Origin: Bryoerythrophyllum caledonicum
Lineage: Eukaryota; Streptophyta; Bryopsida; Pottiales; Pottiaceae
DNA: 64,000 nt
Assembly (NCBI GenBank): GCA_963971425.1
Contig: OZ020514.1
Span: forward strand, 14,823,218-14,887,217
Direction of reading: 5' to 3'
Positions 11,187 to 57,999 of this stretch are shown here, piece after piece. The first letter of the stretch is position 1, and the number at the start of each line of letters is the position of its first letter. The translations under genes were made by a program, and so were the position numbers. A model generated the notes under the pieces. The model was not told the DNA's origin and did not search any database. It saw only the letters and a list, made by a program, of their open reading frames with translations.

Positions 11187-11610
11187 AGTCATCAAGATAA
11201 TGTGCAAAAAATATGGCACACACGTGCATCGGGAGATCTATCGAAGAAATCGAAGATGGTGAAGTTCTTCTGAAAGGAAGGAGCTTTATGGAAGAAGCGT
11301 TGGAAACATTAATGGGTGTGAAATGGTACCATGTGCCTTTGCATTCCAATATAGGAGGATCTTCCGATGTGACCAATTGTACCTAGAGAACTTGGAAGTG
11401 AATCCCTCAAAAGTATGAAGAAAGAATAACTGATGATAAAAAAAGGTGAATGGATCCTTTACAAAACAACTGATGATGTTCCAAAGCAGATCAAGGGGGA
11501 CATGCTAGTAGTACATGCGAGAACAATCCGGTAGGAAACAAATGTGGCATACAGTCGGATCCAGTAGACACAACAAACAGTTTAAAAAAAGGCCAAGACA
11601 TTAAAGATAA

Positions 11611-12160
11611 ATCATGACAGCAACAGGCAAATCAATAATAGAATAAATTGAGATGTAAAAATCTAACACATGCAGATATAGGAGGGATAGATAGATCTTC
11701 CTATCTCTTGGACTGATTCACTGAAGACAATTCATGACAACAACAGGCAAATTCATAACCGAATGTATTAAGATACGCAAATCAAACACATGCTGGTACA
11801 GGTGCAATTGATAGATCTTTCTATCTCTTGGACTCATTCACTGAAGACAATTCATGACAAGAACAGGCAAATTCATAACCAAATGTATTAAGATACGCAA
11901 ATCAGACACATGCTGGTATAGGTGCAATCGATAGATCTTCCTATCTCCTACACTCAAAAGCACCCAACAAATGTAACATACAATCGGTCCCAGTAGGTAC
12001 AGAAGGCTTTTCCAAAGAGGATTGATTTACTAAAGAATTTTTATCACAACAACAGGCGATTCAATATCGTATGTATTAGGATGTGAAATCTTACACATTC
12101 AGATAGAGTAGGGATTAATAGATCTTCCAATCTTCTAGACTTAGGGTTGATATAGGATAT
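11611..12160. repeat. 120-bp tandem repeat carrying A-type palindromes
   Basis: TTCATGACAACAACAGGCAA-like unit starts occur at 11,611, 11,731 and 11,851, exactly 120 bases apart, with a fourth, more diverged copy near 12,041. Each unit carries one palindrome of the GATAGATAGATCTTCCTATC type. It lies just downstream of the D2 gene, near the left end of element A, where subterminal binding-site arrays are expected in plant transposons. Confidence 0.7.
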
Positions 12161-12195
12161 CCCCTGAGGATCGATAGGTCGTCTAGTCTTTGAAC

Positions 12196-14712
12196 TCAAG
12201 GATCCGCCACGTTTGCAACTTCAAGGTTTGTCATTGCTGCTATTCGGTCCCTCTGTGGAATTGTTCGAGTCTGAGGGTTCAATGTACTTGACCAAGAAGA
12301 AAATACGATGGAATAAACATGAACCTGCATCGGACGTCGTTTCTCCGAAACCCACGTCGCCGACCAACAATCCTCGTACTTCTTCTTGTGGTTCTTGAAC
12401 GCATTTCTTGGCTCCCATAATTGGATAATAAACATTCCATATTGCTCATCACCAACTACTCTATTGACTGCTGATTGCGCTCTCCCTAACCAGACATGAT
12501 AAATCTCAGGGTCAGATGGATGGAGAAGGACCTAAGATCCGGAAACGATGTCTTGCCATGGATTCAAAGCGACCTTCGGTCTGCTTGAACGTGGGCCACA
12601 GAAAGGTTCAGGCTCCTCATCTTCAGGTGTGACATCTCCTCTAGTAATAAGGCTCAAAGGAGCAGAAATTGTCGCACTCCAATCTTGAATCAGCCAAAAT
12701 GCTTCTACCAAAGCGAGGGATGTGGAAGGAAGAGGTTTCTCAAGTTTCTCAAGAATTGCATTCCAGTATGCAATATACGGTGGAAAATCACGCCGAAAGC
12801 CCTCATATTTCTCCATCCCCTTCTTCCAGAATTTTATATAACCTTGAATTCCAGATTTAATGAAGGACCTCTTATCAATTACTTTGGAAACCCTCTCTCT
12901 TGCCTTCTCAATTGCCTTTTCTTGATTGCTAGTTGGAGAAGGAACCTTGTCTCCCCACACTCGCCTGAAAGGCACTAGCTTTGGGAGGCCGGAAGGTATC
13001 TTGGGACTTCCGTCGGCATCCGACTTCCAAAGTTGTATACCAGAGCTGTTTCCGGGTAGCCAGTGAGTGTCAATTGCGTTCTCTTTGTAGCGCATGACGG
13101 GCCAACCATCATCATCTACATAGAATTTGAAGAGGTGCATATCTCCTAAACCAGTAAGTGTATTTTGGCCGTCACATAGAAAGCCTTTGACGAATGATTT
13201 GAAATCCGCAACCTCCTGAACAAACTCAGGCATAAAGCCCAACTCCTGCGATTCCATAAAAGACCTCATCAAATCCGCTACCACATAAGTATTAAGATTC
13301 TTAAGGGCCTTGGATAAGTGGCTGAAGTAAGCATCGATATCCTCATGCGTGTGGCCGTCTAATAAGAATCCAACTTGGATTTCCTTGAACACCCTACGAT
13401 AAGTCAACATCGATAAGAAAGCCATGAGAAACTAGTTCTTATTTTCCTTTGGGAAGTTGTCCAGCTGCAAATAAAGATTTTTGGGAAGTGGGACAACTGC
13501 AATTGAGTGGTTTGGTACCACCGTAGGTAAAAGGTTTATACATCTAGACTTTCCTTTCAGCATAGCCTCAAAAAACGAATTTCCCGGCTCGTGAGGAAAA
13601 AGTTTACCCGTAATGCGAATGGAAGGTTCTTCAAGACGACGATGCAATCTCGCTAGGGATGAGATTGTGTAATTTGAGTCCCCTGGCCACAAGTCGGTAG
13701 AATAGTGGGCGTACGCACCGTCTCCATGTCCATGCGTCACCATACCGGTGACGTTCATTGAGAGCTGACCAAGCGGTATAGTGAGTTTGGTGGAAACACG
13801 CATGCGCGGGTTCGCAATCTTGGCTGTATCCATTTTATCGTGGATAATGCAAAGAATCTCCCCCTTATTGCGCTTTGACTCCTCTCTCCAACTATGGTAC
13901 ACACGCCTACATGAAGCTTGAAGATTCAAGTGTTGACTTCGTTGTTTCACAAAGGATACATACTCGGCAGAGCCCTTCACCGATTTGTTGATAAACTGTT
14001 GAAGAGTGTTGCAGACGGTGCACTTGGCAAAGGAACTCCCAATAGGTTTAACCACAACGTTGTTGAAGAACTCCTTCTTGATTCTACTCACAACAAACTG
14101 CGAAACAATGGGCAACCCATTCTGTAGATTTGTCTACAGACAGAGCCAAACAACAGAAATCAGGAAACGTGTCATTGTGGGCAATGAAGGGATCGAAAGA
14201 TCTTCCTATCTACCAGGAGATGGAATCGATGCCAATTATTGGTGAGAAAATCCAAGCAATAACTCATGAATAGGATAGGAAGATCTACCTATCCTCAAAA
14301 GCATCCACATGAATGAGTCAAAGACTAAATTGAGGTGAACTGTGTCGAGTGATATCTCTGTGGCATCAGCCTGGATACTCTTCCAACTATGCCCAGAGGG
14401 CAGAAACTTCAATGTGTCCATCCGCCCTCGTACAGTCGTACGCATTTGTTGAGGCATGTGATCAGCGTTCTCCCTTATGATAGCAGAAATCGTACCCATG
14501 GCTTGCACGGTTCCGAGGCGCGGACGTTTGACGCCTTTGTTCCCGTGCATTGATGAAATGATGCCCTCCATGTACTGGTCGATATAGGTGTGGAACGTTG
14601 ACTTTATAATACCATGGATCTGGTACCATGTTGTTGAGCTGACATCTTGTCCAAGCAGAGTCACATACTTTCTTTTCCTATTATTTCCCAAGTAATGCAA
14701 TTGCCCACCCAC
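12196..14712 (-). pseudogene. DUF7869-type putative transposase (D2) of element A
   Basis: On minus, the first exon (about 14,743-14,350) reads through FWLIDLDDRQEYGRVVGG to KSIQADATEISLDT. An intron of about 220 bases holding two A-type palindromes follows, ending in CTGTCTGTAG. The main exon then has KCTVCNTL, IIHDKMDTAKIANP, HGHGDGAYAHYSTDLWPGDS, YLQLDNFPKENKN, DGHTHEDIDAYFSHL, and a C-terminal module PEPFCGPRSSRP to VLLHPSDPEIYHVWLGRA. The acidic residues of DKMD, QLDN and HEDID are all kept. Two in-frame TAG codons interrupt the main exon, one right after ENKN and one before VLLHPSD; both fit TGG-to-TAG changes. No frameshift is visible in the main exon. Such a protein would act in the nucleus. 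The RNase H-like assignment is inference. Confidence 0.6.
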
Positions 14713-14747
14713 AACTCTACCATACTCCTGTCGGTCATCTAAATCTA

Positions 14748-15618
14748 TCAGCCAGAACTTCTACCGAATGAGGAGCGTATCTTGGGGCCGGAATAATCTG
14801 ACGCATTCGTCAAGACAATATGACAACAAACTGACCGCCTAAATTGCTTCGGAGAGAGTCTTCTTTGCATAAGAGGTGAATTTTTCCTCGATTTGCGGTT
14901 TGCGACAAACAAAGTGGTATGCTGCTTTCGGACGACCACCAAGGTGGGCGTTGGGGTCCACAGGAGGAGGAAGTCAGATGAAGTGGTCCACTATCTTGCT
15001 CAGACCACGCCCCCCATCAAATCTACAATCAAGAATGGGCGGCCTCTGATGGCTTATGATGTCATTACGATCTCCGATGAATACGTCAAAGACAGTGACG
15101 CCAATGTTCCCCTCCCCCAATGTACTGTCCTGGAAAGGCTCAATAGGCAGGGTGCAATTGATGCAACCAGATGCAATCGGAAGTCCATCGCAATTATAGC
15201 GTATCACCACCATCCCCACCGATTTCTCTTGCGGAAAGAACGGACGAGAGTCCACAGATTTGGAATTGCCATCAAGTTCTGGGTCGACCGATATTGGCTC
15301 ATCTGGAAGGACAACGCATCTTGACACCCAAAGAACAGTTCTACCGATTGAATTAGCTAACAAAGTAACACCCTCTTAAATTGGATGAATCAAAAGACAT
15401 CGAGCCGGAGGACAAATTTCCACAGGTCAGAGAAGAGTCAGAAGAGGCATGTGAACGTTGATGTCAACGCCAAGCCAACGCCCTGAGGGGGCTGCTTCAA
15501 TAACAGTGGCGCGTCCCACAACCCCATGGCCGGCATAGCAAAGCAGAACAGCCATTCCGGGCGCTAGTTCACCTCGGCAGTCTCGCATGCCATTGTCACG
15601 GGCACAAGAAGAAAACAT
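14748..15618 (-). pseudogene. N-terminal part of D2, DUF8039-like domain
   Basis: Minus-strand reading from 15,618 gives GMAVLLCYAGHGVVGRATVI, then WLGVDINVHMPLLTL, then ARCLLIHPI and SIGRTVLWVSRCVVLPDE. This is the layout I recall for DUF8039 in plant transposon proteins: a VxLhh...VVGkgTh core and a later DAxGxxVxWP-like segment. Two in-frame stops interrupt it and a frame change lies before 14,743. A following open stretch (KQFRRSVCCHIVLTNASD) may correspond to the Cys pair of D1. It probably belonged to the same gene as D2. Confidence 0.4.
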
Positions 15619-15639
15619 TCTAAGTGGTCAAATAATGGC

Positions 15640-16480
15640 CCTGCGGAAGCATTCAAAACAGTCGATCAACAATCGGACAAGAACACCATCAGGCACAGAA
15701 GAGAGATGGACAGATCAACATATCCGGCAAAATTCACACTCACCCTGAGAGACAAGTCGACCACGAGAAAGATCGAAATACCTTCCTATCCAGTGGTTCC
15801 CTCCAAGGGACTCAAAGATCATCCAGCCTACAAGGTTACTCAGTAGCCATAGTAAACCATAAGACAGATCGAAAGATCTTGCTATCTACAGGGTCTTCCT
15901 AGAGACTGACCGGAAAATTAAGCGGATCGATAATCTTCCAATCCCCAAGGTTCCTCAAGAAATCGAAGTTAACCATGACAGTGATCGAAAGACCTACCGA
16001 TCATTAGGTCTCAAACACACCAAAATAATCTACGAGGGAGTTTGAAAGAAACTCCAATCCAGGAGGTCTCGAAAAAACCTTAGACGAACCAAGTGAGATC
16101 AAAAGATCTTCCTATCAAGAGGATCAACAAAATGGATTGAAAGATCTTCCCATCCACACCGTCTCACTCTTATCAAATATTTAGGAGCAATGGACTATTA
16201 TAGAATTGTCGAGGATTGAAAGATCTTCCTATCTGCAAGGTCCCCCTCTCCTAGAAGTTGTTGATGAGGAGATCGAAAGATCTTTCGATCAAGAGGGTCG
16301 ATGAAATGGATCGAAAGATCTTCCCATCCACACCGTCTCACTCTTATCGAATATTGAGGAGCGTTGGACTATTAAAGAATTGTAGAGGATCAAAAGATCT
16401 TCCTATCTGTGAGGTCCCCCTCTCCTAGAAGTTGTTGATGTGGAGATCGATAGATCTTTCGATCAACAAAAGCAACGAGA
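15640..16480. repeat. Field of A-type palindromes
   Basis: More than ten copies close to GATCGAAAGATCTTCCTATC occur in 840 bases, including a perfect 20-bp palindrome GATCGAAAGATCTTTCGATC at about 16,272. A block with two palindromes and CCATCCACACCGTCTCACTC recurs about 170 bases apart (about 16,130-16,260 and 16,310-16,440). It lies between the divergent D2 gene and the plus-strand cluster, where a shared promoter or a transposase-binding region would be expected. It is non-coding. Confidence 0.7.
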
Positions 16481-17525
16481 GGGTCTAGTGGTTATTAATA
16501 TACCTGGAGTTAGTGTGTTCTATCGGAATGGAAACAACATTGACACTGGAACGAAACCAATAGTATTGTGCGATGTATGAATCCATACCACAAGATTAAT
16601 TCCATTCACAAATAAGTCGACACTGGAACGGAATCATGTGCCTAGTCAATGAAGTCAATGTTGTAGGACAACATTGTCACTGGAACAAAATCGATAGAAT
16701 TGTGCGAAGTATGAATCCATACCACAAGCTTAATTACATTCACATACAAATTGTGAGAGCCTTGGAATTCGACGCATACAACAATTCAATTCTACTCGTA
16801 TATAGAAAGCACTAGTATGGAAGTGATCGACATTGAAGTTCAGGAGACAATATCAACCTTAACACATCGGATGAACGGCGTCATAGCAATTTCCTAATGT
16901 TTGAGATAACAAACGCACTCGCAGAAGAAATGCTGAAAGAGGGAGGCGACGGTACCGTTGTTGAGGTGAAACTTAGCAGAGATGGATCACGATCAAGCTC
17001 CAGACAATAGCATCAATGAACACAATCCAACTCCACGCACGAACACCCACGACCAAGCTTGCGCTGAAGGCGCCAACATCTACTAACGCTTAAGCGCTCA
17101 TACTCCAACACCACACTCGATACAACGCATGCCCAAGCTTTGCTGTCTTGAATACGAACTCCCTGACGACGTCCCTCACGTTCTCACTCTAACATTCGCT
17201 CTAACGTTGTGTCAACCTAATTGCGCCTTACTACACACGATGCCGACCACTTGCTGTAGTGCTGAAAAATAAAACTTGAAATTGCTTCAAGTCAGGGATG
17301 GAGCGTCTTCTTTCAAACTTGAGCGGGAAATTGTACGTCCAATTCTTGGCATCATAGAATGATTGACCATTTTGGCGGGGATGGAGAGTAGCGTTTGTTG
17401 TAATGATTGGAAGATGAAATGGAATCTTGAGTGTAACAGTTCTTGACAATTAAGTGGTCGGAATTTAATGATGAAGATTTGTAGTTCTCATGTGCATCCC
17501 ACGGTGCACCAAAGTGCTCATTGAC
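16481..17525. other. Non-coding spacer with a 140-bp direct repeat
   Basis: A block GTATGAATCCATACCACAAG with its flanks recurs about 138 bases apart (about 16,563 and 16,706), along with ACTGGAACRAAAYCRATAG. From 16,960 to 17,450 there is no recognisable gene. Confidence 0.5.
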
Positions 17526-17870
17526 ATCCGACGGTTTGAATTAGTCTAATGAAAGATTGAATACAAATAAAATAGAGAATTAGTCTAATGAAGGATTGAA
17601 TAGAAAAAATTAGAATCACAAAATAGAAAAGAGAATAAAAAAATAGAATAAAGAAATAGAATGAAAGATTGCATAGAAATAATTAGAATCACAAAATAGA
17701 AAAGAGAATAAAAAATAGAATAAAGAAATAGAATGAAAGATTGAATAGAGATAATTAGAATCACAAAATAGAATATAGAAATAGAATGAAAGATTAAATG
17801 AAAAAAACTAGAATAAAAAAATAGAATAAAGAATTAGAATGAAAGATTGAATAGAAATTACTAGAATTAT
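17526..17870. repeat. AT-rich tandem repeat, 53-73-bp units
   Basis: Unit starts GAAAGATTGAATAGAAATAA recur at about 17,550, 17,591, 17,664, 17,736, 17,788 and 17,841. The motif GAATGAAAGATCGAATAG appears again at about 19,338, after the block that follows, so the following 1.5 kb looks inserted into this repeat. Confidence 0.7.
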
Positions 17871-17879
17871 ACATACAAC

Positions 17880-18896
17880 ATACAATTATATATCGATACA
17901 TTTTATACATTTATATATATATCCAACATACAACTATACATACACAGGTCTTACATATATATATATATACATCACACAATTATGTATCCATTTGATTTAT
18001 ATCTATATATACAACATACAACTATACATGCATTCATTTTATTCATATACACAAGATACAATAATTATATATCGATACATTTTATATATTTATATATATA
18101 TACAACCTACAACTATACATACACAGATGTTTTATATATATTCAACAGACAATTATATCTCCATACAATTTATATCTATATATACAACATACAACTATAC
18201 ATACCTATATTTTATACATATATACAACATACAAGAATTATATGTGGATACATTTTATATATATATATATACATATATTTCCAACCTACAACTTTACATA
18301 CACAGATGTTATATACATATATATATATTCTACATACAATTATATCTCCATAAGATTTATATCTATATATACAACATACAACTATACATATATACAATGT
18401 CATACAATAATTATATATCGATACATTTTATATATTTATATATATCCAACATACAACTATACATACACAGATGTTATATGTATATATATATACAACATAC
18501 AATTATATCTTCATAGGATTTATATCTAATTGTTTCTCGATACGATATATATTATTGTACAATTATATCTCCATATGATTTATATCTATATATAATATAT
18601 ACAACATACAACTATACATACATACATTTTATACATATATACAACATACAAGAATTATATATTGATACATTTTATATATATATTTCCAACCTACAACTAT
18701 ACATACACAGATGTTATATATATATATACAAGATACAATTATATCTCCATACAATTTATATCTATATATACAACATACAACTATACATACATACATTTAA
18801 CTCATATATACAACATACAAGAATTATATGTGGATACATTTTATATATATATATATATACATATATTTCCAACCTACAACTTTACATACACAGATG

Positions 18897-18932
<36 letters not shown>

Positions 18933-19030
18933 TACATACAATTATATCTCCATACGATTTATATCTAATTGTTTCTCGATACGATATATTTTATTGTACA
19001 ATTATATCTTCATACGATTTATATAATAAA
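17880..19030. repeat. TA-rich satellite-like array
   Basis: Repeating phrases such as CAACATACAACTATACATAC, ACACAGATGTTATAT and CAATTATATCTCCATACGAT recur at irregular spacing of about 170-240 bases, mixed with (TA)n runs. The Tyr/Ile/Thr-rich open frames here are by-products of this composition. Such sequence often forms cruciforms and assembles badly. Confidence 0.7.
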
Positions 19031-19139
19031 AAAGAATCTATATCTTTAAAAGAATACAGGATGAGAAATACATCGATGGATGAACGCGTCGATGAATAAT
19101 GCTTTTGGATGGACAGCTAAGAGTTAGGGTTTTGGATAA

Positions 19140-19265
19140 ATGGACGAGGCGGGGATTAGGATTTGGGGACGACGTCGGGGGACGGGGACGGTGACGGGGG
19201 ACGGGGGACGGGGGACAAGGGGATAAGGACGGGGGGACGATGGATTGGAGGGAAAAGGCTAGGGG
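19140..19265 (+). repeat. G-rich GGGGACGG minisatellite
   Basis: Runs of GGGGGACGGGGAC, GGGGGACGGGGGACGGGGGA and AAGGACGGGGGGACGATGG make this the most G-rich spot of element A. It could form G-quadruplexes on plus. It lies directly after the TA-rich array and before a Helitron-like end. Confidence 0.6.
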
Positions 19266-19282
19266 ACGGGAAGGTGGGGATT

Positions 19283-19327
19283 CAACACAAAAAAATGTTG
19301 TGTCCGGAGAACGCGGGTAACACTCTA
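19283..19327 (+). other. Possible Helitron 3' end
   Basis: CAACACAAAAAAATGTTGTG can fold as a small hairpin, then GGAGAACGCGGGTAACACTCTAG is followed by T. A CGCGGG tract just before CTAG|T is typical of plant Helitron 3' ends. The matching 5' TC end was not identified in the TA-rich array to the left. Confidence 0.3.
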
Positions 19328-19419
19328 GTAAAGATATAGAATGAAAGATCGAATAGAATTAACTACAATCAATTTTTTATTTAGGGATATAGGGTTTGAA
19401 GGTTAAGGATGTAGGATGT

Positions 19420-19485
19420 AGGATTAGGGTTAGAACATGGTTTAGGGTTAGGGTTAGGATTAGAGTTTAGGGTTTAAGTTTAGAA
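19420..19485 (+). repeat. Telomere-like TTTAGGG/TTAGGG stretch
   Basis: GGATTAGGGTTAG, GGTTTAGGGTTAGGGTTAGG and TAGGGTTTAAG make an interstitial, degenerate run resembling plant telomere repeat. It is too short and impure to mark a chromosome end. Confidence 0.5.
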
Positions 19486-21057
19486 TTTTTTGTTGAATTC
19501 AACGTTTAAAAAATTTAATCTACACATGGAGATGTATATACCTTGATTGTTTAATAACAGTTAATCTTCTGGATTTTGATGTATTTAGAAATTGTATTCA
19601 AATTAACAAGACTTACTTCATTCATTTGTTAATTTTCAACTAACATCTTTCATTTGAAGGTTATTCCAAAGTTTAAACTTTATCATGTTCAAATACACCA
19701 TAATACATGTAGAATACCGCGGCCGCCACTTTGGAAATTAAATTATGAAAAGTAAGTTCATAAATCAAATGTGTAAAATTATATTTGGAAACGAAATGTG
19801 TGAAAATAAAATTTGCAAATGAAATGTGTAAAATTTAATTTGGAAATCAAATGTATAAATAAAATTTACAATTCAAAAAGTTCACGTAAAGAAAGTAATG
19901 AAAATTCATCAAAAGAAAGTAATGAAGACTCAAATCACACAAGAAAGTAATGAAAAGTCAAATCAAGAAAAGAACTTCACGACTTGTAGAGAAGTTCACT
20001 CGAGACAAATGATGAAAAAGTCATCATTAGAAGTGCCAAATGGTAACTCACCCGTCGTGGTCGACGGCTTGGTTCCATCATCATTACTTTTTCAATTACC
20101 TCCTTCCCGCCACCACCAACTCCAACCCTTCCAGCTCTTCCAAGTCCTCCCATTCTTGCTTTTCAAATGCTTCTTGTTTTCTTAGCTTCCTCTCTTCGTC
20201 TCTCTCCTCCCGCATGTTGATTTTTCGTGTTGTTTTTCTTTGTGTTGTGTATGGACTGTAGTATGTTAGCGTGAGTTTGAGTGCCAGGTCAATTTGTGAG
20301 TAGATGCAGTAGGAGTGCGAGTCCTAATTTGTGAGTAGCAACAGCAGGAGTGCGAGGTGTTAGTGTCGGTCGAAGGCGATTTCGTGAACGCGATCAAGAG
20401 CATCGTCGGAAGTTCCAGGAGGAGCAGGAGCAGTGCCGGTGTTTGAAGGTTCTCAGGGAGTGAGCAAGCGAGTAATTTTTTCGAGCGAGCAACTCCAGCT
20501 AACGGGTGTGTCCAACGGGTGCAACCCTAGTGCTAACTAGCGGGTGCCTCGAAGCGCTGATTCATACAGACAAAGGTAATTACAGCGCTCATTCTTATTC
20601 CTCAGTTTTTTCTTGCATGCTTGAAGGATTTTAGAACCAAAATAACGTACTAAACCTAGGTTATCTCTCTAGTTCGTTTTTTTTTCACTTTAGAATAGAG
20701 TTTCTCAAATGAATATCAATCTGCTTATACTAGTTACGTATTAATCATGTAACTAATCAATAACGACTAATTCCAACATGTTTTCTTGTAATCTTCAGAT
20801 TGCGCACTGTTTTGGATGCAGCACAATGTTCGAAACCACCTCAGGAAATCCCGTCAATTAAGATTCCATGCTCTGAATGATCTCTATTGTGATACACACG
20901 AACCTAGATCAATGAATATCATATGATATCCACTATGCTTAGTTATGTTATGTATTGCAATTCAAGGTGCAGTAGATAGAAAGTTCAATGTATCCCTCCT
21001 TATTGAGAGAAAGGTTTCCAAAGCACTTCCTTTATCAGTGGATATAGCGATATCTCC
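19486..21057. other. Non-coding spacer upstream of cluster A
   Basis: No gene recognised. CAACCCTAGTGC at 20,522-20,533 repeats the 3' end context of the Helitron-like element at 3,913 and could be another end. A tandem GTGAGTAGATGCAGTAGGAG/GTGAGTAGCAACAGCAGGAG repeat sits at about 20,297-20,360. A plus open stretch at 19,898-20,185 has no recognisable protein. Confidence 0.4.
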
Positions 21058-21732
21058 TTGAGGTTTAGGGTTTTAGATGATAGGAATATATTCCTATCGT
21101 ACTCTGCGGTGGGCTTGGGTTGCTTAAGAGTTTGTGGATCGGTAGATCTTCTCATCTATCCTTGTGAGGATATAGGATCAGTGTTGGTTCAGAGGCGATT
21201 TGTTGATCGGAATATAATCCTATCCCACTCTGCTGTGAGCTTGGGTTGCTTGAGTGTTTGTCGATCGGTAGATCTTCCCATCTATCCTTGTGGGGTCTTA
21301 GGATCGGTATTGGTTCAGAGGCTCTTTGTTGATCGGAATATATTCCTATCCCACTCTGTTGTGGGTTTGGGATGCTTGAGAGTTTGTGGATCGGTAGATC
21401 TTCCCATCTATCCTTGTGGGGTCATAGGATCGGTATTAGTTCAGAGGTTGTTTAATGATCGAAATATATTCCTATCCCTCTCTGCTGTGGGCTTGGGTTG
21501 CTTGAGAGTTTGTGGATCGGTAGATCCTCCCATCTCTCCTTGTTGGGCCATGGGATCGGGATTAGTTCAGAGGGAGTTTATAGATCGGATTATATTTCTA
21601 TCCCACACTGCGCTGGGCTTGGGTTACTTGAGTGTTTGTGCATCGGTAGATCTTCCTATCCCTTCGCGTGGATACTTTGCAACGTCTGGTTTAGTTTTGA
21701 TCAGTAGATCCCTATCCCATCATGCCGTTTGA
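21058..21732 (+). repeat. 126-bp tandem repeat with two palindromes per unit, open in frame
   Basis: Units start with GATCGGAATATATTCC-type sequence at 21,079, 21,205, 21,332, 21,457, 21,583 and, shortened, 21,699. The spacing is 125-127 bases except for the last. Each unit has a GATCGGAATATATTCCTATC palindrome and a GATCGGTAGATCTTCCCATC palindrome. Because 126 is 42 codons, one plus frame stays open for 224 codons, repeating SVDLPIYPCG and SHSAVGLGCL. It sits just upstream of the first cluster A exon. I favour a regulatory or binding array over a protein. Confidence 0.75.
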
Positions 21733-21798
21733 TCTGACCATTTTGTTTGTATGAGCAGTGCAAACTTGATTTCGTGTTTGGAGACAAACAAGGACTAG

Positions 21799-30791: not shown

Positions 30792-30797
30792 TTCTCT

Positions 30798-41589: not shown

Positions 41590-41690
41590 AAAGATGAAGA
41601 ACTCCGGTTCAAAGGGCCGGTGTGAATAAAGCGATTGTTTGTTCTACCACTAAGTCCATGTCCACCGAACTTATGTCACACACATATTTT
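41590..41690 (-). other. tRNA-like fragment, possible SINE head
   Basis: The minus strand reads GGACTTAGTGGTAGAACAAA and, about 30 bases on, CCCTTTGAACCGGAG. The first resembles a tRNA A box (TRGYNNARNNG-like TAGTGGTAGAAC) and the second a weak, imperfect B box. I could not fold it into a full cloverleaf, so it is at best a decayed tRNA-derived piece. Confidence 0.2.
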
Positions 41691-44216: not shown

Positions 44217-44345
44217 TCGATCATATTCAATATATTGAGACAATTTTAGAATTTTGAGACTTTTTGCCGATAATTTCAGCAGCTATTTTGAGCTAATTCA
44301 TGCATTTTGATGACATTTTAATTAAAATTATCCATGATTTAAGGA
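44217..44345 (-). mobile_element. Partial M1 element
   Basis: From TCATATTCAATATATTGAGA through TTTTGAGACTTTTTGCCGAT to TTATCCATGATTTAAGGATAA it is the reverse complement, with changes, of 4,239-4,369. The palindrome is degenerate here. Confidence 0.5.
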
Positions 44346-45734: not shown

Positions 45735-45760
45735 TCACTCTCTCTCTCTCTCTCCCTTTG
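45735..45760. repeat. (CT)n microsatellite
   Basis: A run of about ten CT units lies after GGGTGTGACACCTCTCA. Confidence 0.8.
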
Positions 45761-47575: not shown

Positions 47576-47919
47576 TGCAAAAGAGACACGTTATAAAAGA
47601 AGCGATGAGTAGGACATAACAACATTCATAGCAATCCAATGCATGCTCGACCCTAGGATAAATATGAAACCAGGCCCGAAGAAATACAGTTTACCTTGTT
47701 TCCACAATAAAAATAGTAAGCTCGACGAGAGGATAAACAATAATACTGAAAACAATGATAAATCCTAGACCCGACCGAAAGATGAATAGAAGCACATAGG
47801 AAACAAAAAACACGAGACAATGCCATTACGTTACAATAAAACTTGTTGTAGTTGTAAAATATTTATATATTCAAAATGTAAAAGGGTGATTACAATGTCG
47901 ATACTAAATGCCTACTATA

Positions 47920-48560
47920 TTACAAAAAAGAAGCTTGAAACTGTGAAGCCAATGAAGTAGAACCGTGTGGAATTTCATAGACAAAACCAACGTTTTTGTT
48001 TGAGAGCGCCATCCCATCTACAATATACTTCATGCAAGGACTATTATGCGTTAACGGTGGAACCCCTATGCGATTGTTATTAACATAATCATGTAATTGC
48101 CCAACAAGGCATTCGGAAACCAAACGTCGCAGCCAAGGTATAAGTTCCTGAGTATGGAACTCGTCATCACAAGCCGCATGTCTCCACGGACGAAGAAAAA
48201 TGGCATTTCCCGTATGATTACAGACGCTCTTCTCCGGGCTGTCGTCGATGAGAAGGGTGTTGTCCGAATCTAGGACCATCGACTCAAGTTGGCGCCTAAA
48301 TAAAATTGATTACAGGGTTTTCAAGAAAATCATCTTGTTCGAATTATTCTGGTCCATCAAGAACTTATTGGGCGAGGTTTCAATTCTCTTACAGCTCTCC
48401 TGACCAAGAACCAAAGCTGGAGAAGCCATGTCCGAAAAAAGATACTTCGCGATTTCAACTACAGTGAACTTCTTCATGGAGCTTCAGACGACAATAGAGT
48501 TCGTAATGTTTTTGATTTTTGCAAGTGTGGGAATCCGTTCCCACAAGGTTCCGGAAGTTA
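47920..48560 (-). pseudogene. Cluster C FCP1-like gene, C-terminal half
   Basis: After an acceptor GCTGGATTTTTAG the minus strand reads LAKIKNITNSIVV before SSMKKFTVVEIAKYL (the usual Trp is a stop), LVLGQESCKRIETSPN, KMIFLKTL and NTLLIDDSPEKSVC, then LRPWRH. It is collinear with cluster B, including FLKTL and IDDSP. Its N-terminal half lies 4 kb away at 52,330-52,627, beyond insertion E. The final DD is kept. Two stops are visible in this half. Confidence 0.6.
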
Positions 48561-48837
48561 ACCTAAAAATCCAGCAAAAACAAAAAAAAATTAGTTTTAG
48601 AATGTTAGAAAGATAGATTTAAACCGTAGCAAAGGGAATTAGCAAATAAGACAAACAGAGGGGGACAAGATCTTTAAAAGCTCTAATGGAATGCTTAAAT
48701 CCGAAAGGTCCGGGTCCGGTAGAAGTCGTCACAACCGGAACCTTCCAGAAATATCCGAAACCGGATGAAATCGGAGCCGGAAACATCCGGAACCGGAGAC
48801 GTCATCATGACTACAACGGCCATCCGTACACCAACGG

Positions 48838-48960
48838 GAGTATAAGAGCAGGAGGCTATTTTTGTCATCTCACACTTCTCTCTTGCTCTCGTCCTCTTTC
48901 CCCTCACCTTCTTATCTTCTTACCTTCTTGCCTTCTTACCTTCTTGATTAAGTTAGACCG
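48838..48960 (+). promoter_or_regulatory. TATA-like box and CT-rich leader of insertion E
   Basis: GTATAAGAGCAGGAGG at about 48,839 is followed by a pyrimidine-rich leader (CTCTTGCTCTCGTCCTCTTT, CTTCTTACCTTCTTGCC) ahead of the first long frame at 48,988. This resembles a plant core promoter. Confidence 0.4.
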
Positions 48961-51034
48961 GAAGAATTTCCGAAAGAGAGAGTTTTAGTGAGGTCAATGC
49001 GTGCAGGTGTCACCGAAGAGGTTGTGAGGTATTTTGTGGACATGGTGGAAGAAGGGGCTCATCGGACAACGCGAGGCACTACGACGCAGCCATCGGTGCA
49101 GCATGTGTGTCCAAGTATACCGACAGATCCAGAGGAGCTTGCGGTCCTCGAGCACTCCCTCAGCAACATAGGATGCCGCGGACTACTCAACGTAGCGTGG
49201 GGTGTGAAGGACGCGAAGTTGGTGGTGGAGCTCCTCAGAACTCTAGACAATCGCTACGACGGCACGATCCGTGCACATCCCGAAACCGGGGGTGTGCCGG
49301 AATGGCAACATACTTACGCCTTCAGCATTGGAGACGTGAAGACGGCGGGACGGAACGACGAGGTATTGGGGGACGAGTTTACAAGGCCCGCCGACCCGAA
49401 AAAAGGCTATAGCACCAACGACTTGCGACACCAGGACGCGCAGATTGTGGTAAGGTTCTTGAATCCTATCTTCAACCGGAAAAGCCAAAATGGGTGGTGT
49501 CTAAATGGGCCACCACCATTCTAGGGTCGATGAGAGGAAAGTTTAGCGTAGATTGGGCCTCGTTTATGAGCGAGATGATCACCTGGATGGTGAAAGGACT
49601 CCACAAAGGTAAGAAGGCCAGAACCCCCCTTCCGTCGTACCTCACTCACCTTTATGCTCGGCACGACATCCTTACGCCTAACAAATAAGACGAGTACGAG
49701 GAGCTGCTAAGCATCCAGATCTACGGCGGCCCGGAGCAAGCATCCAACGAAGAAAGCATGGAGATTATCGAGATTCCCGAACTTGAGCCAACCCCCCAAT
49801 ACCAGAAGAAGAGCAGGTCTGTGCAGTAGGAGTCTGCACCGGGACCCACTCCCTTGAACCAAACCATAGACGCACCTGGAGCTCAAGGAAATCCCAAGAC
49901 AGTTCCTCGTGAAGGTCGAGTGCCGCCCGCCGATCCACCAACACTCATAGGAATCATCAAACCGGACCTGATGGAGCTCATCTACCATGTGGGATGGCGA
50001 GCAGCCCTCCTATGCTAGTAAGAGGTAAGGCATATGGAGATTTTGGAGGGCATTCGAAAGGAGCTGGAGGTGGAGAAGATGGTGGACATCCCGATTGAAA
50101 TCGCAGTGCTCCGAAAGAATACCCTTCGACTTCGAGTCTTGGAAGATCAGCAAGCAGCCATCATTTGGTGTCGGGACCAGTTTGCTGCGAAGTTAGACGA
50201 GACATACACCGCTCTAGCAGAGGCCAAGGAAAAGCGGAAGAAAGCCGAAGACCGGGCGAACGCCTCAGCCCACGCCTTGGCCGAGGTAAGATCATCCCTT
50301 AAGTTTCCGGTTGACACTGTCAACCGGAGCCTCCTCTTCACAGATCAGCTGGAGAAGGAAGAGAAGATGAACATGGTCCAGATCATCAGATTCCTCCACG
50401 ATCACGGCACAAAGATGGAAAAGATATGGAGCCGGATGCAAGATCTGGTGGCCAACATGACTTCGGAGGGACGAGAGACCCGGAGTACCCAAGCTCCAAA
50501 TGACAGGTCACTTCCGGTCCGAGTCCGGACCGCTCCGGATGAAGCCTGACCGTCAGGAGTACATCCGGAGCCCTCCGAAAAGCAGAAGGCGGTCATGTCC
50601 CAGTCGAAGAGTGTGGCACCGATGAGCTGGAGCATTCTCGGTGACTCGAATATCATGACGGACAAGCACTGGACGGAGTTATTACCAGAGGTAGGTCCGG
50701 AAGAGACAGAGACACCTCCTCCCGTCCAACCTGCTCCAACTCCTTCATCGAGCCGGAGGAAGTCAACTCCTCCACTAGCTCGGCACTTGGCTACGGATCC
50801 TCCCAGCCCAAGTGCGAGGTTTCAAGGTTTTGTTGGAGCACATGAGGCTATGGTTGCTGATACCACCACCGAGCCAACTCCTTCGGCAGGACCACAAGAT
50901 CCACCTTCCGGATCCGGATCGCTGAGGCAGATGGCAGCTACAACACCCCAGTGAAAGAAGGTCGGCAAAGCCAAAGCAAAGGCTTCCACAAGGCGCACCA
51001 GCTCAAGATTCAAGAACGTTGGATCACCCCCTTA

Positions 51035-52262
51035 GGTAGATATAGGATTAGAATTAGGAATAGTTTAGTGAACTAGGTTAGGTAGCAATTAACGATGGGG
51101 CTGAGAGTTGCACCCAGCTACTTATCCGGAAACTAAGTCATTTTGTAAACTTCCGGATTTTAGCAGTTTTTCCGGATGTCCGGAAGCCGGACCCGGAAAT
51201 TTCGGATCTAGGATTCACTGTCCCGGCTTTTTTGAGATAAGATCCTTACTTTTAGGGATGAGATCCTCCGGATTTCTTGCGAATAAGGTTAGACTAAGAT
51301 TAGGGATCTTAGTTAGTACTTAGGAGATGAGTTTTATCAAACTCATCATCTTTTTTTTCCTTACGTTGAATATATTTTCAGATCTATTTGCTAGAATTGC
51401 TACCTAGTTCTTATGACAAGAAGTGTTATCTTTGTGAGGGACATGATCCGTTGTGGTAGTCATTGTTGTAAGGAAGTTCTTTTGAGGTAATTGGTACTTG
51501 ATTTATTGGAGAGTGAACCAGTTGGGATCTACAGTGGGAGAACGCCCGGACGAACTGGAGGTGTATTGCAGAGGTGTTCCTCGTAACCTCCAGGGTCCGG
51601 AAGATGCCAGGAGGGGAAGAGAGTTATTGCAGAGGAGTTCTCGGTAAATCTCTAGGGCACAAATTCTTCCATGTGAACCCGGATTCCGGTCAAGGTTGGA
51701 ATTTACCCCCACGATGGGACAAAAGCTTGTTATGTAAGTCTAGAAGGAGTCTTTTCTATGTAAGTTGTGCCAATAGCTTCCGGAGAATTACAATAGTGCT
51801 ACCGGAACGTCGTTGTAGTCCGGACTTGTCTCTGCGTGAACGCGTCCGAAAGGCCTTCCGGGTATTGTGAGAGTCTATGTCTAGTAACAACAATCAATCA
51901 CCAGTTAGTGGAGTAGGGAGATTGGGAGTCCGGCCACTATAAGTTCCGGGGCAGTGGGTGTCTAGCCACTTAAAATCACAAGGCAGTGGGGAATCCGGCC
52001 ACTTATACAAAATAGGATCAGTGGCCTTCCGGTCACTCGTTTAAACCTTCCGGAAGTATCTCTGTGGAGGAACAGAGGTAAATCAAACTACCCTCTCGTT
52101 GTCCGGAAACCAATTCCGAAAACCCTTGTATGTATATTTCGGAAACTAGTTCCGGAAAGCTTTGTATGAAATCCGGAGTCCGGAAGGATCCGGATTTGTT
52201 ACTCAATAGAATAGCTAACCTAAGTGATTGTTAGTTTAGTTGTCTTTGGATATTTTGAAAGG
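51035..52262 (+). other. Non-coding 3' part of insertion E, dense in TCCGGA
   Basis: Motifs TTCCGGAA, ATCCGGAT and GTCCGGAA recur every few dozen bases. GCAGTGGG-like phrases with TCCGGCCACT or TCTAGCCACT recur about every 40-50 bases at 51,910-52,050. GTATTGCAGAGGTGTTC and TTATTGCAGAGGAGTTC form another short repeat at about 51,560-51,640. No gene. Confidence 0.5.
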
Positions 52263-52329
52263 ATCAATAGATCTCTGTGGGAACGAAACCGGAGTGGTTT
52301 ACTTTGAGAGTACTTAGTGACGATTGAGT

Positions 52330-52627
52330 GCATTCCTGAGGAATACTGACTCTACAAATTGCAACAGCGAGAAACACACGAACTCCAGGGCGAGTATATA
52401 CAACTTTGGGACCTATGTACGCAGGGACGGTGCAAGAATACGCTATTCGACTCCCGGAGCCTCTCGACAACCCGAGGGCACGTTCTATTTTGCAAAGGAT
52501 GCCATTAATATCCAGCACGATATTAAGCCACATGTTTGGCCGTTGGCTGAGGACTACGGACAAACTCCTCGGCAAACAGTCCTGGGACAGAATGAACAAA
52601 CAATAAGGTCAACGGAAATTACCTGAT
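52330..52627 (-). pseudogene. Cluster C FCP1-like gene, N-terminal half
   Basis: After an acceptor TTCATTCTGTCCCAG the minus strand reads DCLPRSLSVVLSQRPNMWLN, IVLDINGILCKIERALG and IGPKVVYTRPGVRVFLAVA, then loses similarity near 52,340. LDING is the motif I form seen in A and B (second Asp is Asn). YTRPGV is typical of FCP1-like domains. The rest lies at 47,920-48,560 on the other side of insertion E. Confidence 0.6.
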
Positions 52628-52974
52628 TAAATGCACATTGAGCAATACGCAAAGGAAGTGTCACATATTGCATCAATTCTCACCCTCATAGCGAACTCTA
52701 TAAACCATTCCCAATTTGAGGCTTCAATACAAGAGGTCGGTGAACAATATCATCCATTCTCATCTGAGAAAACAATTGAAGAAAATTAAATTGTTGAACA
52801 ATTCCATAAATTATAAACAAAGTGGTATTACAAATATGTACACTCCGCCTAATGTACATTAAAACTCATATGGATCCAATGCCTGCAAGCCAACACACCC
52901 ATATAAGACCTACTGGAGACTAGGAGTAGTCATCAAAAAAATACACGGCAATTGCTCGTGGGACATGAAAAAAA

Positions 52975-54603
52975 TAGTGGAAAAAACTAGCCAACCTTGT
53001 CAGGTTCAGACGTACCCTGCTCGAGATTTTTTGGTGACCGCTCGTAATCCACTCGATCCTCTTCCACTGCACATGAATCCTCCGCAACCATAGGAAGGTC
53101 AACAACGCAGGCCCCAACATTGCACTCTTCAAACTGGTAAAGAGGTACACGGAATTGACGTGGTGAGGAACTAGGAACAGAGGAGGCACCATGATCACGA
53201 TGCATTTCATTCTGGGCAAAGACAATGGTGTCACTATACTTTGGTGGACTCTGCTGAGGACTAACAAGCATTCTACCCTCGAGTCGAAGATAATCTAGTG
53301 GCGTTCTATCCTCGGGTCGAGGATAATCCATAGGCATTCATGGGGACAAAGATGGTCCTTCAGGAACAACATGAGAACGAGCCGGGGATGAATGTTGATG
53401 ATCAAATGTAAATGGTTTGTTCACCGCAAAGGGCTGGGACGGAGTCGAAAGACTAGAACCAGAGTTATCTTCGATGCAAGGATGAACTGCGGACTCTAAA
53501 AATATAGATTGTGAAGGACCTGATGAAGCAGCACCTGTAGAGAGAGGCTGAGGACATCATTGTGCTAGGTCTGCCTTCAACTGCAGATGTAGCTCAACCC
53601 AGATAGTGGCCGCAATCCGCTCCTTGTCCAAAGCAAACTCCAACTTCTGCTTCTCGAAAGCAGCCTCCATCTCAGCTTGCTTGCGCTTGGACGCCTCCAA
53701 CTGCTCCATAATATCCTGATTCATCTTTTCCTCCAAAGCGCGTCTGTATGCCATGTGGTGGAAATAATCTACACTTGGTTCATACTTCACAACGACTCCA
53801 AGTGTAGGAGCTTCTCTGGCAGTATTGATGCATATGCATGGAACACTAGATCTCTCGTCTTCATTGTCACTTGAATCAAAGAGCAAGATAACGGGGTCAG
53901 ACGGCGTTGAAGCTCTAGAAGGCACTAGTGTCTCAGGATTCTGGGTCTCCAAAATCGCTGTAGATTCTTCTAGCAATCTAGGAGAGGGCAACGGATTAAC
54001 TATATCTTGAAGCCCTTCCTCGTCATCTACAGCAACAGGAGTTGCTGATCGAGGTGATTCATATGTTGATGAGGGCCCGGCGTCATGGATTCCAAGTATC
54101 GAGAGGTCCACACCTTCATTACTCCTATACGGATTAAACTCGAAGACGTTGTCTTCATCATTATCCAGCGGGTTCAAACGAGGAGAGGACGGTCGCAAGC
54201 ATGGAGTGTCGGCGTCCTCCACAAAATCTTAAGGGACTCGTGATTCAATACGAAATCGAGAACCACTGAGATCACCGCGTCCCCGGACAGTCAAATCAAT
54301 GCCCACAGATGCTCTGGCCTGCGCATGAGTACGAAAAGGCGCAGCTTGTGAGGTTGAGGTTGTCTGTGCTCTTCCTCGCGAAGGCCTTTGATCAGCTCTA
54401 GCTGATGCAGTTTCCAGCCCACTGGATTGAGTTGGAATAGGCTTAGCATACGCACAATCCTTGTGGATAAAATCGTTGATGTCATACATGTGAATTTTTC
54501 TTGAATTCTCCTTGTATAACTTCCGAAAGCTCTTATCCACCAGAGTGTAAAATGACATCTCAGACATCTGCGGAAGACAAGACGAAACAAGTTTAGTAGT
54601 CAA
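52975..54603 (-). pseudogene. Cluster C: acidic and coiled-coil part
   Basis: From 54,603 minus: YTLVDKSFRKLYKENSRKIH, then Ser/Arg-rich sequence, an acidic stretch (LNPLDNDEDNVFEFNPYRSN, DSSDNEDERSS), and a coiled coil MNQDIMEQLEASKRKQAEME with AAFEKQKLEFALDKERI, matching the coiled coil of cluster B. Three stops and a change of frame occur. Near the end the element's own palindrome is read as protein twice in a row (MDYPRPEDR then LDYLRLEGR at about 53,270-53,337). The donor before the FCP1 part is probably GTTGGC at about 52,998. Confidence 0.5.
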
Positions 54604-54796
54604 GTTTGCCTGAAGAGTTAAATATTACGATGAAATAACATGACATGAGAAGAAAATTTACAATGCAAGACAGTGGGCCCACTGAATATCAAAATGCAAA
54701 GCTTCATAGTAGACACAAATTTCTACAAAACAAACGATGGATCGATGATTATCCTCAGGTCGAGGATAAACTCAGAAACGGAAAGGTGACCTCTTA

Positions 54797-57575
54797 CCTT
54801 ACTGGCGAGCAATAACTTTGAGCCGAAATATATTCCAAACACTCGGCTCATGGGCTTGCTGAAGTCCGTGAGGTTGTCGAGGTAGAACTCCATCCTAAGT
54901 TTGTAGCCATGGACCGCGAAGCAAGCCTCCAAATACTTGTTTCTCTCCGTGTAATATGGAGTATCAACAGCAGAGTAGTTCAGCTTCAGTTTCTCAAGCA
55001 AAGCGGCAGATTCAAGAAGGTCGTCTTTAATGAGGAATATAAGGTAAACCTCAGAACACTTTGACCTTCATGTCCCTAAATTAAGCCGCTCGTATGCAGA
55101 GGGAATGTATGTTGAGGAAAGACTATTGTACTTCGGCATCCTCCTTTCAGCATACTTCTCTGCTTGCTTGGTTCACTGCTCAGTAGAGGTGATCCACACC
55201 CAGACGGCAGGAAAGTTGAGGTTTGGAATGCTTTGTTGTGTCTTCAGGGTTTCCAGAAACGGTGAAAAGTAGGGCTCGCCAGAAGAGTCGTCTTTTGATG
55301 CTCACCTAGGGACCCGTCGAAGGTCAAGGAGTCCAAGGGACCACTCTTTGTCCTCAGCAGATGGATCACAATACAAACAGAACTCCATCTTTTCCCCGTT
55401 GAAGTCACGAAGCTTCGAAGGCCCATTGATGGGATCGATGTGGCTCTTCTCATTTAAGAACTTCCGAAAAAACGGAAGGATGTTGGGAACCTTCTCCACT
55501 AAGTGTGACGCGCACTTGAGTTTCCCTGCGTTTATCAACCTCATGGAGAAGAACTCCTTGTCCGGACGGACAAAGAGCATATCGTACATGGTGGTCAAAA
55601 CGCAATGCTCTTGCCTCCACGCTTTCCATACTGAATCATTTGTAGACCCGTTTGGCATAAAAAATGCAAGGACGGATCAATCGTGACCAATTCCCGCAAG
55701 ACGATGCGCTTTCTCTTACGGTGATTTGCCCACTCCTCGTAGTAATAGCACGACCCATGAACCACATTTGTTCTACAGAGTGTGACTTTGGGATATCCAT
55801 AAGCTCGATCACTGTATACCAGGTAGTGGAACAAATCCCTCAGGTCCTTTTCAGAGAGATGCCCCAATCTCTTGAAGAATTCCCGATGAATTGGTGAAGT
55901 GATGATAGCGGGCGTGGATACAAAACATAGTGTAATGCCAAGATTATCCTCGACCCGAGGATACAATACAAAACGTAATGACACACAGTATGTTGCACCA
56001 GACGGGTCCATATACGATATTGATTCCAAACATAGTGTGTTGCAAAGATTATCCTCGACCCGAGGATACAATACAATACATAATGAAATACACTATGATT
56101 ACACCAGACGAGTCCACATACGATATTCATACCAAACATATTGTGTTGTTAGGAATATCCTCGACCCGAGGATACACTACAAAGGGAAAGCTAACCAAGT
56201 ACTTCTCCTGGTCAAACACGACATCATTATTTTGGGATGCGGCCTCTCCTTGTTGATAACTTAGACGTCCCGAGTTTAGCCAGATTCTCCTGCAACTCAA
56301 GATCTAGTTATCCCATGTTGGTTGTGCATGGTCTAGGTAGTTTGTGACATTGCAAAATTTAGAAATCCTCTGCAACATTAGAGGATCCCTTGACCAAACT
56401 ACATTAGCACCCCAATTTCGGAGGCCGTTTTTCCGACTTTCCCCATAGTCGTCTTTGTCTTGAAGTTGCTTGGATGCCTCCACGCTATGCTATCTGTTGA
56501 TGAGCATGAACTTGCCTCCCTTGATATCGTCCCAGGAATTGGGCTTGGTCTTTATCAACTCACCTTCGTCATCGATTGGACATACACAGATTTTTTGGCG
56601 TTGATCGATTTCGCCAAGCTGGAGAAGAAAGTCCATTGTGCTTAGCACAATGCCCTCTTCCATTCCACGAATCACGTATTGAGCTTTTGCAACAACACAT
56701 TGTTCGATCCACACACTTTATGTTGATGATTCGAATGGAAAGCACCCTTTGCACTCCTCCTAGAAAAGGCGCTGTGACTCCGTGATCTTCTGGAAGTCAA
56801 CTTGGGGATCGCTCCGCGCCTTACTTGGAGTCACAGTTTGCGTTACCGTGGATGTCGAGCTTCCTCCGGCATTTGCTTTCCTCCTCTCTGATGATGGTTT
56901 GTCAGGCGTTGCGGCCGTTGTTGTTGGGCGCCTTAGAGGAGGACGGCTTGATGTTCTTGGAATGGATGAACCCGATGGATTCGCCACATCCGCAGTACTC
57001 GCTTGAGGACGACGTTGTTGAGTGCCTCTGACTAGAGCTTGTCGAGCTTCAAAGGCACACAATAACTGGTGAACTCGAACCAACCGCCTATTGACCTTCA
57101 CCGCGCCATCGTTATCCCAGGGTAGGTACTTCTCGAATGCCTCTTTCAGCGACCCCTAACCGTTCTTCACCACTCATTCAAGCAATTCTTGGAAATCAAA
57201 TTTCCCATGAGAAGTAACCACTTTGACGACAATAAAGTGGCAGTGTGGAAGATCATCTCTATCCTCATTGGCAGCCTGAACGCCAAGTACGATGAACTCC
57301 CGTTATTGCTGCTCAATAAATGAAACTCTTTTACTTCTGTTGAGGTGTACATACGGAACGTCGTCGTTAACTTTGAGTGTGATTTGGGTACACTTCCCAG
57401 CTTTTGAGAGTGACCAGCTCTTAACGACATCTTTGAATGCCCAAAGAGTTCCATTGTTCTCCATGACTTCCTCTATAAAGGGGGATGGGGCCATTGAATT
57501 CTCGAACCGCTCAATGAAATACTCAGAGGATGAGTAGTCGTAGTTGTCATCCCAATCCATTTCGGTTGTCGCCAT
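54797..57575 (-). pseudogene. Cluster C, first gene: QH-core protein
   Basis: ATG at 57,575 starts MATTEMDWDDNYDYSSSEYF. A disordered Pro/Ser/Thr linker follows (about 57,030-56,800), then KGGKFMLINR before HSVEASKQLQDKDD and GANVVWSRDPLMLQRISKF, the counterparts of the QH core in A and B (the Gln is a stop here). An intron at about 56,195-55,910 holds three palindromes. Next come YYEEWANHRKRKRIVLREL and, after a frame change, VWKAWRQEHCVLTTMYDMLF and KLRMEFYLDNLTDFSKPMSR before FGSKLLLASK and a GTAAGAGG donor. About nine stops occur; several are TGA where CGA is expected. It is a dead copy. Confidence 0.5.
55910..56195 (-). repeat. Cluster C intron with three C-type palindromes
   Basis: The perfect palindrome with arms TATCCTCGA and TCGAGGATA around CC/CG centres occurs at about 55,945, 56,055 and 56,158, each within ATACAATACAAARCRTAATG-like repeats of about 105 bases. 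As in A and B, the intron is largely palindrome repeat. Confidence 0.7.
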
Positions 57576-57999
57576 CTAACACATCAAAATGTAAATACAA
57601 ATTAGTGGCACAATATCAGCCTTATCCTCGGGTCGAGGATAAATCTTTATTTAATCAATCAAAGTTCTTTGATCTGTAGGCGAATATAATTTTTCTTTAA
57701 ATTTTTTCAACTGCTTCAAGAGTGCGAGATGTGGTATCCGATAAACACCATATTCATTAAATTGGGAGATTTCCGGAACTTTGAAAGGTAAATGCGCACT
57801 CTTATGTTGGAGCCCAGATGTGAATGGACAGAGCTAAACATGCACATAATACATAAACAATGCACATGCTTAAGTAAAGAAAAAATATACATTTTGCCTG
57901 CGACAAAAAATGGAAAGTAAATGAAGGAATAATCTCTTATCACATCCTTTATTGAGTAGTATTACTATAAGAAAATCGCGTTTTATGTAACGCGCCCAA

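Follow-up and report, generated by a model that had tools for sequence, protein, structure and literature searches.

Family-specific palindromic words as putative recognition sites of an element-encoded protein in decayed large transposons of Bryoerythrophyllum caledonicum

A stretch of 64,000 nucleotides from contig OZ020514.1 of Bryoerythrophyllum caledonicum (GenBank assembly GCA_963971425.1, positions 14,823,218 to 14,887,217 of the forward strand; hereafter the window) holds several elements that look like decayed, related large DNA transposons of a eukaryote. These elements carry long palindromic words, and each family of elements has a word of its own: class A in element A, class B in element B, and class C in the elements CD and Z. 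Part of the sites have been amplified in tandem, and homologous introns of B and CD contain different words. On balance, we consider it probable that each word is a family-specific self-recognition site for an element-encoded protein, with a role in anti-silencing, gene control or both; a protein with a GGQH/NNQH core (QH) is the best candidate binder. The palindromes themselves are real and ordered, and they are probably functional.

Distribution of the words among the elements

The half-site consensus, read from the outside to the centre, is GAT.GGAAGA for class A (a mixture of GATCGAAAGA and GATAGGAAGA), CACTTTAGCTCGA for class B and TTATCCTCGA for class C. The B and C words have the centre CTCGA-S-TCGAG in common, and the class A word is different. 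A fixed, strict threshold was applied, under which the two 10-base arms together had to match at least 16 of 20 letters (B and C) or at least 17 of 20 letters (A), with at least 7 matches in each arm. The window contains 29 class A, 14 class B and 19 class C sites by this measure, and all 62 fall inside their own element or element family. Every class A site lies within 11128-29190 (element A) and every class B site within 29191-39603 (element B). The class C sites are confined to two elements with common end sequences, 16 of them in CD (39604-57785) and three in Z (1-11070). An earlier note on this DNA had proposed that palindrome density follows element boundaries, and within the window this was borne out. 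The interval that it gave, 11600-57700, misses the class C sites of Z to its left (4238-10931; centres 4248, 10650 and 10921).

Chance matches to the three motifs are rare. In 100 first-order Markov shuffles of 2-kb blocks the mean number of sites was 0.01 (A), 0.04 (B) and 0.01 (C), with maxima of 1, 2 and 1. Scans with 200 permuted motifs gave means of 0.125, 0.035 and 0.04 and maxima of 20, 1 and 2, the A maximum presumably reflecting a permutation that nearly rebuilt the motif. At a looser threshold, all 42 class A matches remain in element A and 18 of 19 class B matches in element B, the remaining B-like site being at 63625; class C gives 25 matches, of which 21 lie in Z or CD and four are B sites that also score as C. 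Since the motifs had been derived from the same window that was scanned, an unbiased count of 9-mers was added. Fragments of the words head its list, alongside simple repeats and a 26-bp minisatellite: AGATCTTCC occurs 19 times in the range 11693-27045, CGAGGATAA 15 times with every copy in Z or CD, and TCGAGCTAA 13 times with every copy in B. Stray fragment copies occur elsewhere, for example TATCCTCGA once at 33819 and CACTTTAGC at 58619 and 61533. The scan against shuffled sequence and permuted motifs, together with this count, confirms the three palindrome classes described in the earlier note.

The fields of sites end at the ends of A and CD, which were found independently from inverted repeats. 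The left terminal inverted repeat of A (28 bp, 11128-11155, plus strand) is complementary at 26 of 28 bases to the right one (29163-29190, minus strand), starts with ATGCCA, and gave a local alignment score of 46 against a maximum of 28 in 60 shuffles; a 4-bp flank repeat, ATTC, brackets the element at 11124-11127 and 29191-29194. The ends of CD, a 41-bp repeat at 39604-39644 (plus strand) with 83% complementarity to 57745-57785 (minus strand), start with TTCAAAG and scored 47 against a shuffled maximum of 22, likewise in 60 shuffles. A target-site duplication was looked for at the CD ends and none was seen. Z is recognized by its right-end sequence (11042-11070, minus strand), which has 27 of 29 bases as at 57744-57772. 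Thus two separate elements with similar end sequence both carry the class C word. An additional copy of this end lies at 4116-4144 in the same orientation as that at 11042-11070, and because of it Z may be two elements or contain a duplicated end.

Element B is bounded differently. No terminal inverted repeats of B were found: the highest scores did not exceed the shuffled maxima, or exceeded them only slightly, and the top-scoring pair lay in the CD end. The limits of B are those of its neighbours, with nothing but the start of CD to mark its right border. A short piece to the left of A (11071-11127) is probably the left part of B, an assignment that draws on two features, the ATTC flank repeat and a single exact half-site of B (GAGCTAAAGTG at 11104); because of them A appears to be nested in B, that is, inserted into it. 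The left part of B also contains, at 29242-29253, an exact CACTACAAAAAT that resembles a CACTA-type end and for which no partner was found; with up to two mismatches this pattern occurs 17 times against 11.2 expected, barely above chance. ARAGORN also reported a tRNA-Thr (AGT) inside B (29380-29455, minus strand), which is absent from the Rfam matches at the gathering threshold.

Tandem repetition accounts for part of the sites, 22 of the 62 lying in six tandem arrays that differ in period. Outside the arrays the same word recurs in flanks that are mostly unrelated, as judged by eye. An origin of the words as miniature inverted-repeat transposable elements or satellites was considered and set aside because the sites outside arrays mostly share no flanks. 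The exact patterns of the three words had no match in viral contigs, and a search of Rfam at the gathering threshold returned none.

Site positions and the genes of the elements

Elements A, B and CD each encode QH and domains of the NIF-type phosphatase family (Pfam); the QH/NIF gene set of CD is here labelled D. Gene order is common to B and D, and the sites occupy matching intervals between homologous exons with different words. The numbers of sites in B and D are seven and one in the 5' flank, two and three in intron 1, three and one in a later intron, one and three in the next interval, and one and eight in the 3' flank. There are no sites in the shared exon segments, in 34701-35427 or its D counterpart, or between the NIF exons. 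Splice sites and introns were read from the sequence only, and the acceptor of D intron 1 is ambiguous.

In B, five sites lie upstream of the QH gene at 31957-32235 (centres 31971, 32024, 32076, 32128 and 32221), two in QH-gene intron 1 (sites 33977-34104, intron 33952-34181) and three in the later intron (sites 35561-35809, intron 35550-35836), where the first palindrome begins 11 nt past the GT. Two further sites in the left part of B (29700-29798; centres 29713 and 29784) belong to a 71-bp tandem repeat, and the last strict sites are within 36890-38975 (centres 36903 and 38962). The intron of CD that corresponds to B intron 1 by homology holds three class C sites in a 106-bp tandem repeat (55944-56175). 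Four more are spread over 53273-54769 (centres 53283, 53316, 53475 and 54759), the last of them in the intron homologous to B 35550-35836. One site lies between the D QH gene and the right end of CD (57622-57642), one in the AT-rich part of the element (44328-44348), and seven just inside the left end (39670-40613), where a 528-bp step duplicates two of the seven. This step belongs to an exact direct duplication of 531 bp at 39977-41035 (offset 528), which holds class C sites and is either recent or an assembly duplicate.

In A, 10 strict sites cluster upstream of the DUF7869 gene (15771-16465), part of this cluster falling in a 174-bp tandem repeat. A second cluster (21079-21661), immediately upstream of the QH frame, contains six strict and 10 loose sites in a 126-bp tandem repeat with two sites per unit. 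Upstream sites of this kind are also found in B, as given above, in Z (10640 and 10911) and in D (57622). Four class A sites lie in the QH-gene intron (sites 23181-23442, intron about 23113-23507), and two in a probable intron of the DUF7869 gene (14191-14294; centres 14201 and 14284), the second being within an open frame. On the 3' side of that gene, at 11686-12133, strict sites are centred at 11696 and 11936 and loose sites at 11816 and 12123, the first three of the four lying in a 120-bp tandem repeat. The remaining strict sites are within 24941-27926 (centres 24951, 25893, 26996, 27051 and 27916), with those at 26996 and 27051 belonging to a 55-bp tandem repeat ahead of the NIF domain. 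A large TA-rich tandem array, which includes a 34-bp AT palindrome, was also observed between the two gene halves of A at 17868-19100.

The division of the genes into exons points to a eukaryote. DUF7869 genes were identified by Pfam (PF25273) in A and Z and are broken in both: that of A (12199-14760, minus strand; E=1.9e-22 and 1.5e-11) has in-frame stops at 13432-13434 and 12532-12534, and that of Z (8336-10433, minus strand; E=4.1e-22 and 5.9e-10) is split over three overlapping frames. An open frame of B (30112-30489, minus strand) resembles the Z frame 5486-5800 (E=4.6e-14; no Pfam match) and is tentatively a relic of the 3' region of a DUF7869 gene, a link made by eye. A search of PDB sequences with DUF7869 gave one chance-level match (E=0.94), and a search of the open-access literature found no paper on this family.

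The NIF-type domains of A are found in two open frames (27042-28587, plus strand; PF03031, E=1.3e-12 and 3e-06). The QH and NIF exons of B (33421-38194, plus strand) are homologous to those of D (47923-57575, minus strand) by cross-element alignment, with Pfam support for NIF, and the D exons, assigned by alignment to B, are broken by in-frame stops. The D NIF domain is under the curated cut-off (E=0.0035), yet it aligned to B at E about 1e-14. In A (first copy), B and D (domains at 27156-27665, 37457-37603 and 52408-52551), the first phosphatase motif, which we take to be usually DxD, is DLN or DIN, so that Asn replaces the second Asp; this replacement suggests that the activity of the NIF domain is doubtful, weak or lost. 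A block of plus-strand open frames at 48650-51867, between two NIF exons of D, contains a 23-bp perfect palindrome (50306-50328) and is probably another inserted element.

The first large QH exon of A (21799-23112, plus strand) is encoded opposite to the DUF7869 gene, contains the VIIGGQHCVAAHK core and is without a significant family match; in D a stop codon stands at the Q of the core. Between B and D, the best QH segment aligned at E=7e-07 over 43 aa, and A against B or D reached only E about 0.02. Identity of QH is 18% (A-B) and 22% (A-D), versus about 33% for the NIF segments. Protein queries with the A QH exon and one DUF7869 frame gave no match in viral contigs.

Arm symmetry and competing explanations

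The earlier note had claimed that the arms of each word change together, so that self-complementarity is kept. Strict symmetry is rare, both 10-base arms being fully complementary in two of 29 class A, four of 14 class B and none of 19 class C sites. Many class A sites combine the two half-site types, which differ at two arm positions, and class A is therefore usually an imperfect palindrome. Covariation was assessed by permutation, comparing arm complementarity within copies with that between copies in four segments of the arms per class. For class B the results were p=0.037, 0.008, 0.0018 and 0.011 (14 copies, the signal being driven by three), and in the best segment, positions 9-13, 64 of 70 positions matched versus 57.4 expected. 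Covariation was absent from all four segments in class A (p=0.31, 0.81, 0.69 and 1.00) and in class C (p=0.69, 0.83, 0.24 and 0.50; 17 copies after two exact duplicates were dropped). Position 2 of the class A arm, taken alone, gave p=0.0005; of its five double changes, three come from a single tandem array and another has 25 exact bases in common with that array, so that these changes are largely of one origin. What remains of the earlier claim is joint change in class B, seen in 14 copies; it does not extend to class A overall or to class C.

These results bear on the alternative offered in the earlier note, a maintained RNA or DNA hairpin. Hairpins in introns and leaders, acting as splicing, small RNA or processing signals, would fit the covariation of the B arms, the very stable folding of two perfect B copies (-19.9 and -25.1 kcal/mol) and the start of the first intronic sites in B and D at 11-28 nt past the putative GT donor. 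However, full complementarity over 10 bases is limited to six of the 62 sites, and many sites are intergenic. Because class A is consistently imperfect, with two common copies folding weakly (-1.3 and -3.8 kcal/mol), and because the class C arms do not covary, this explanation is disfavoured and we regard it as very improbable.

The main rival is that the words are sites of a transposase or of a TnpA-like helper, serving synapsis of the ends during excision as the subterminal repeats of CACTA transposons do. Such a role agrees with the class C sites of CD, seven of which lie less than 1 kb from the left end and one 153 bp from the right end, and with the presence of both DUF7869 and class C sites in Z. 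It also agrees with PMC2613891, in which CACTA subterminal repeats form palindromes that differ between families while the DNA-binding proteins diverge. Nevertheless, many sites are kilobases from the ends and some are intronic, the strict class A site closest to an element end is 568 bp away (loose sites are closer), and Pfam names no CACTA transposase domain in the frames scanned. We consider this rival unlikely. A functionless spread of selfish palindromes, or quasi-palindrome repair, in which tandem duplication and template switching act within an element, could explain the array-borne sites, the longest B palindromes, whose arms both run past the consensus as expected of templated repair, and the lack of significant exon avoidance when exons are drawn blindly (see below). 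Such a spread accounts poorly for the retention of the word outside arrays in mostly unrelated flanks (by eye), and for the occupation of the same introns by different words in B and D, and it seems improbable to us.

Proposed element-encoded recognition and its parallels

The reading that we favour, sites for a dimeric, element-specific DNA-binding protein as suggested in the earlier note, draws on three properties of the words: they track the borders and the family of the elements, they recur in tandem units, and they are not the same at homologous introns of related elements. In this model an element-encoded dimeric protein would recognize the word of its own family. Sites located upstream of genes, within introns or, as in the C family, close to the ends would allow control of transcription and chromatin with coding sequence left untouched. 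The A and C words are preserved as words, without tight pairing between their arms. The binder may be DUF7869, QH or another protein; QH is our best candidate, since it occurs in all three of A, B and D, is seemingly the most diverged of the shared proteins, and diverges in parallel with the words. The QH proteins of B and D are closer to each other and their words share a core, and both the QH protein and the word of A are distant.

The closest parallel is the VANC/VANDAL system. VANC anti-silencing proteins act on motifs of the Arabidopsis VANDAL (Mutator-like) transposons (Hosaka et al. 2017, PMC5735166; Sasaki et al. 2023, PMC10398659). According to PMC5735166, VANC21 sites are specific to their family, multiply through tandem repetition and occupy introns as well as intergenic and terminal non-coding DNA, and the related proteins VANC21 and VANC6 differ in target specificity. 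The family specificity of the motif, its tandem amplification and the related families with diverging proteins are points of likeness, and its concentration in non-coding parts of the element is a probable one. The words resemble the VANC21 and VANC6 targets, and an element-encoded dimeric protein, likely acting in anti-silencing or gene control, is therefore favoured; by analogy with VANC on VANDAL, an accessory protein would relieve silencing in a sequence-specific manner, control genes, or both. The transposase family and the accessory proteins differ from those of VANDAL, and Pfam gave no match to a VANC domain or a Mutator-like transposase in the 30 frames scanned, which are a part of all frames.

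Several results weigh against this reading. The VANC motifs (YAGTATTAY and AGTTGTMC) are short and non-palindromic, unlike the words described here. Searches with QH in Pfam, PHROGs, NCBIfam, PADLOC and PDB sequences returned nothing significant, and AlphaFold models of QH and DUF7869 were too poor to use (mean pLDDT 35.3 and 36.0). A QH gene was not found in Z, although Z has class C sites, and the correlation of protein with word covers three families, too few for a test. The sites probably avoid exons as a rule, though less clearly than our own gene model indicates. With our own gene model none of the 62 sites overlaps an exon, with rotation p=0.0075 (A), 0.033 (B), 0.33 (CD) and 0.57 (Z), values obtained with exon limits drawn with the sites in view, and the test was therefore repeated blind. 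With segments homologous between elements there was again no overlap among the 62 sites (p=0.060, 0.19, 0.42 and 0.63, in the same order). With open frames of at least 90 aa on both strands, 14 of 29 A, three of 14 B, six of 16 CD and none of three Z sites, 23 of 62 in all, fall inside a frame (p=0.11, 0.060, 0.41 and 0.21). No element reached significance in either blind set.

Among other known systems, CACTA transposons (En/Spm, Tam1 and soybean Tgmt*) come next, with family-specific, palindrome-forming repeats presumed to be bound by a TNPA/TNP1-like protein (PMC2613891). Those repeats adjoin the ends, whereas the words described here are mostly internal, some of them intronic, and extend beyond the few hundred bases at the ends. 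CACTA-type ends with a 3-bp target duplication were found neither in A (ATGCCA, 4-bp ATTC) nor in CD (TTCAAAG). A further likeness is offered by Sola1-1_Ec32, a giant Ectocarpus transposon of 21.5 kb with an accessory gene, ParB-like plus DNA methyltransferase, opposite its transposase, whose product was suggested to bind and modify its own element (PMC12477816). Size (21.5 kb against 18 kb here) and an accessory gene on the strand opposite the transposase are similar. In contrast, no methyltransferase was found here, and the string 'palindrom' is absent from the main text of that paper. VirB, a bacterial ParB-like protein, is reported to relieve silencing (PMC10653881). In the open-access literature on CACTA palindromic subterminal repeats and on ParB-like or anti-silencing transposons nothing was recognized as these elements, and the accessible portions of PMC8226300 and PMC6431247 contain nothing on such words.

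QH was also considered as ParB-like on account of a GGQH..A motif; this is a reading of a short motif, and neither profile nor PDB-sequence searches supported it. Compared with ParB-parS, approximate palindromes occur here as putative sites, and QH gave no significant match to a ParB profile or PDB sequence. We attach a low probability to a ParB/parS-like system of bacterial type, in which a distantly ParB-like QH would load at the family palindromes, spread and, with a NIF-type (Pol II tail phosphatase-like) protein as its partner, keep the element open for transcription, word and protein being swapped together in each family, even at homologous introns, and thereby insulating neighbouring or nested elements.

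Self-recognition by family-specific words, as proposed here, would be a new form of a general kind already known from VANC. If the favoured reading is true, address labels read by a protein in the manner of VANC would exist in a lineage other than VANDAL, with a different set of proteins and with palindromic words. Adjacent families with different words in the same introns would make the co-evolution of word and reader directly testable, and the words could serve to classify elements and to predict which protein controls which copy.

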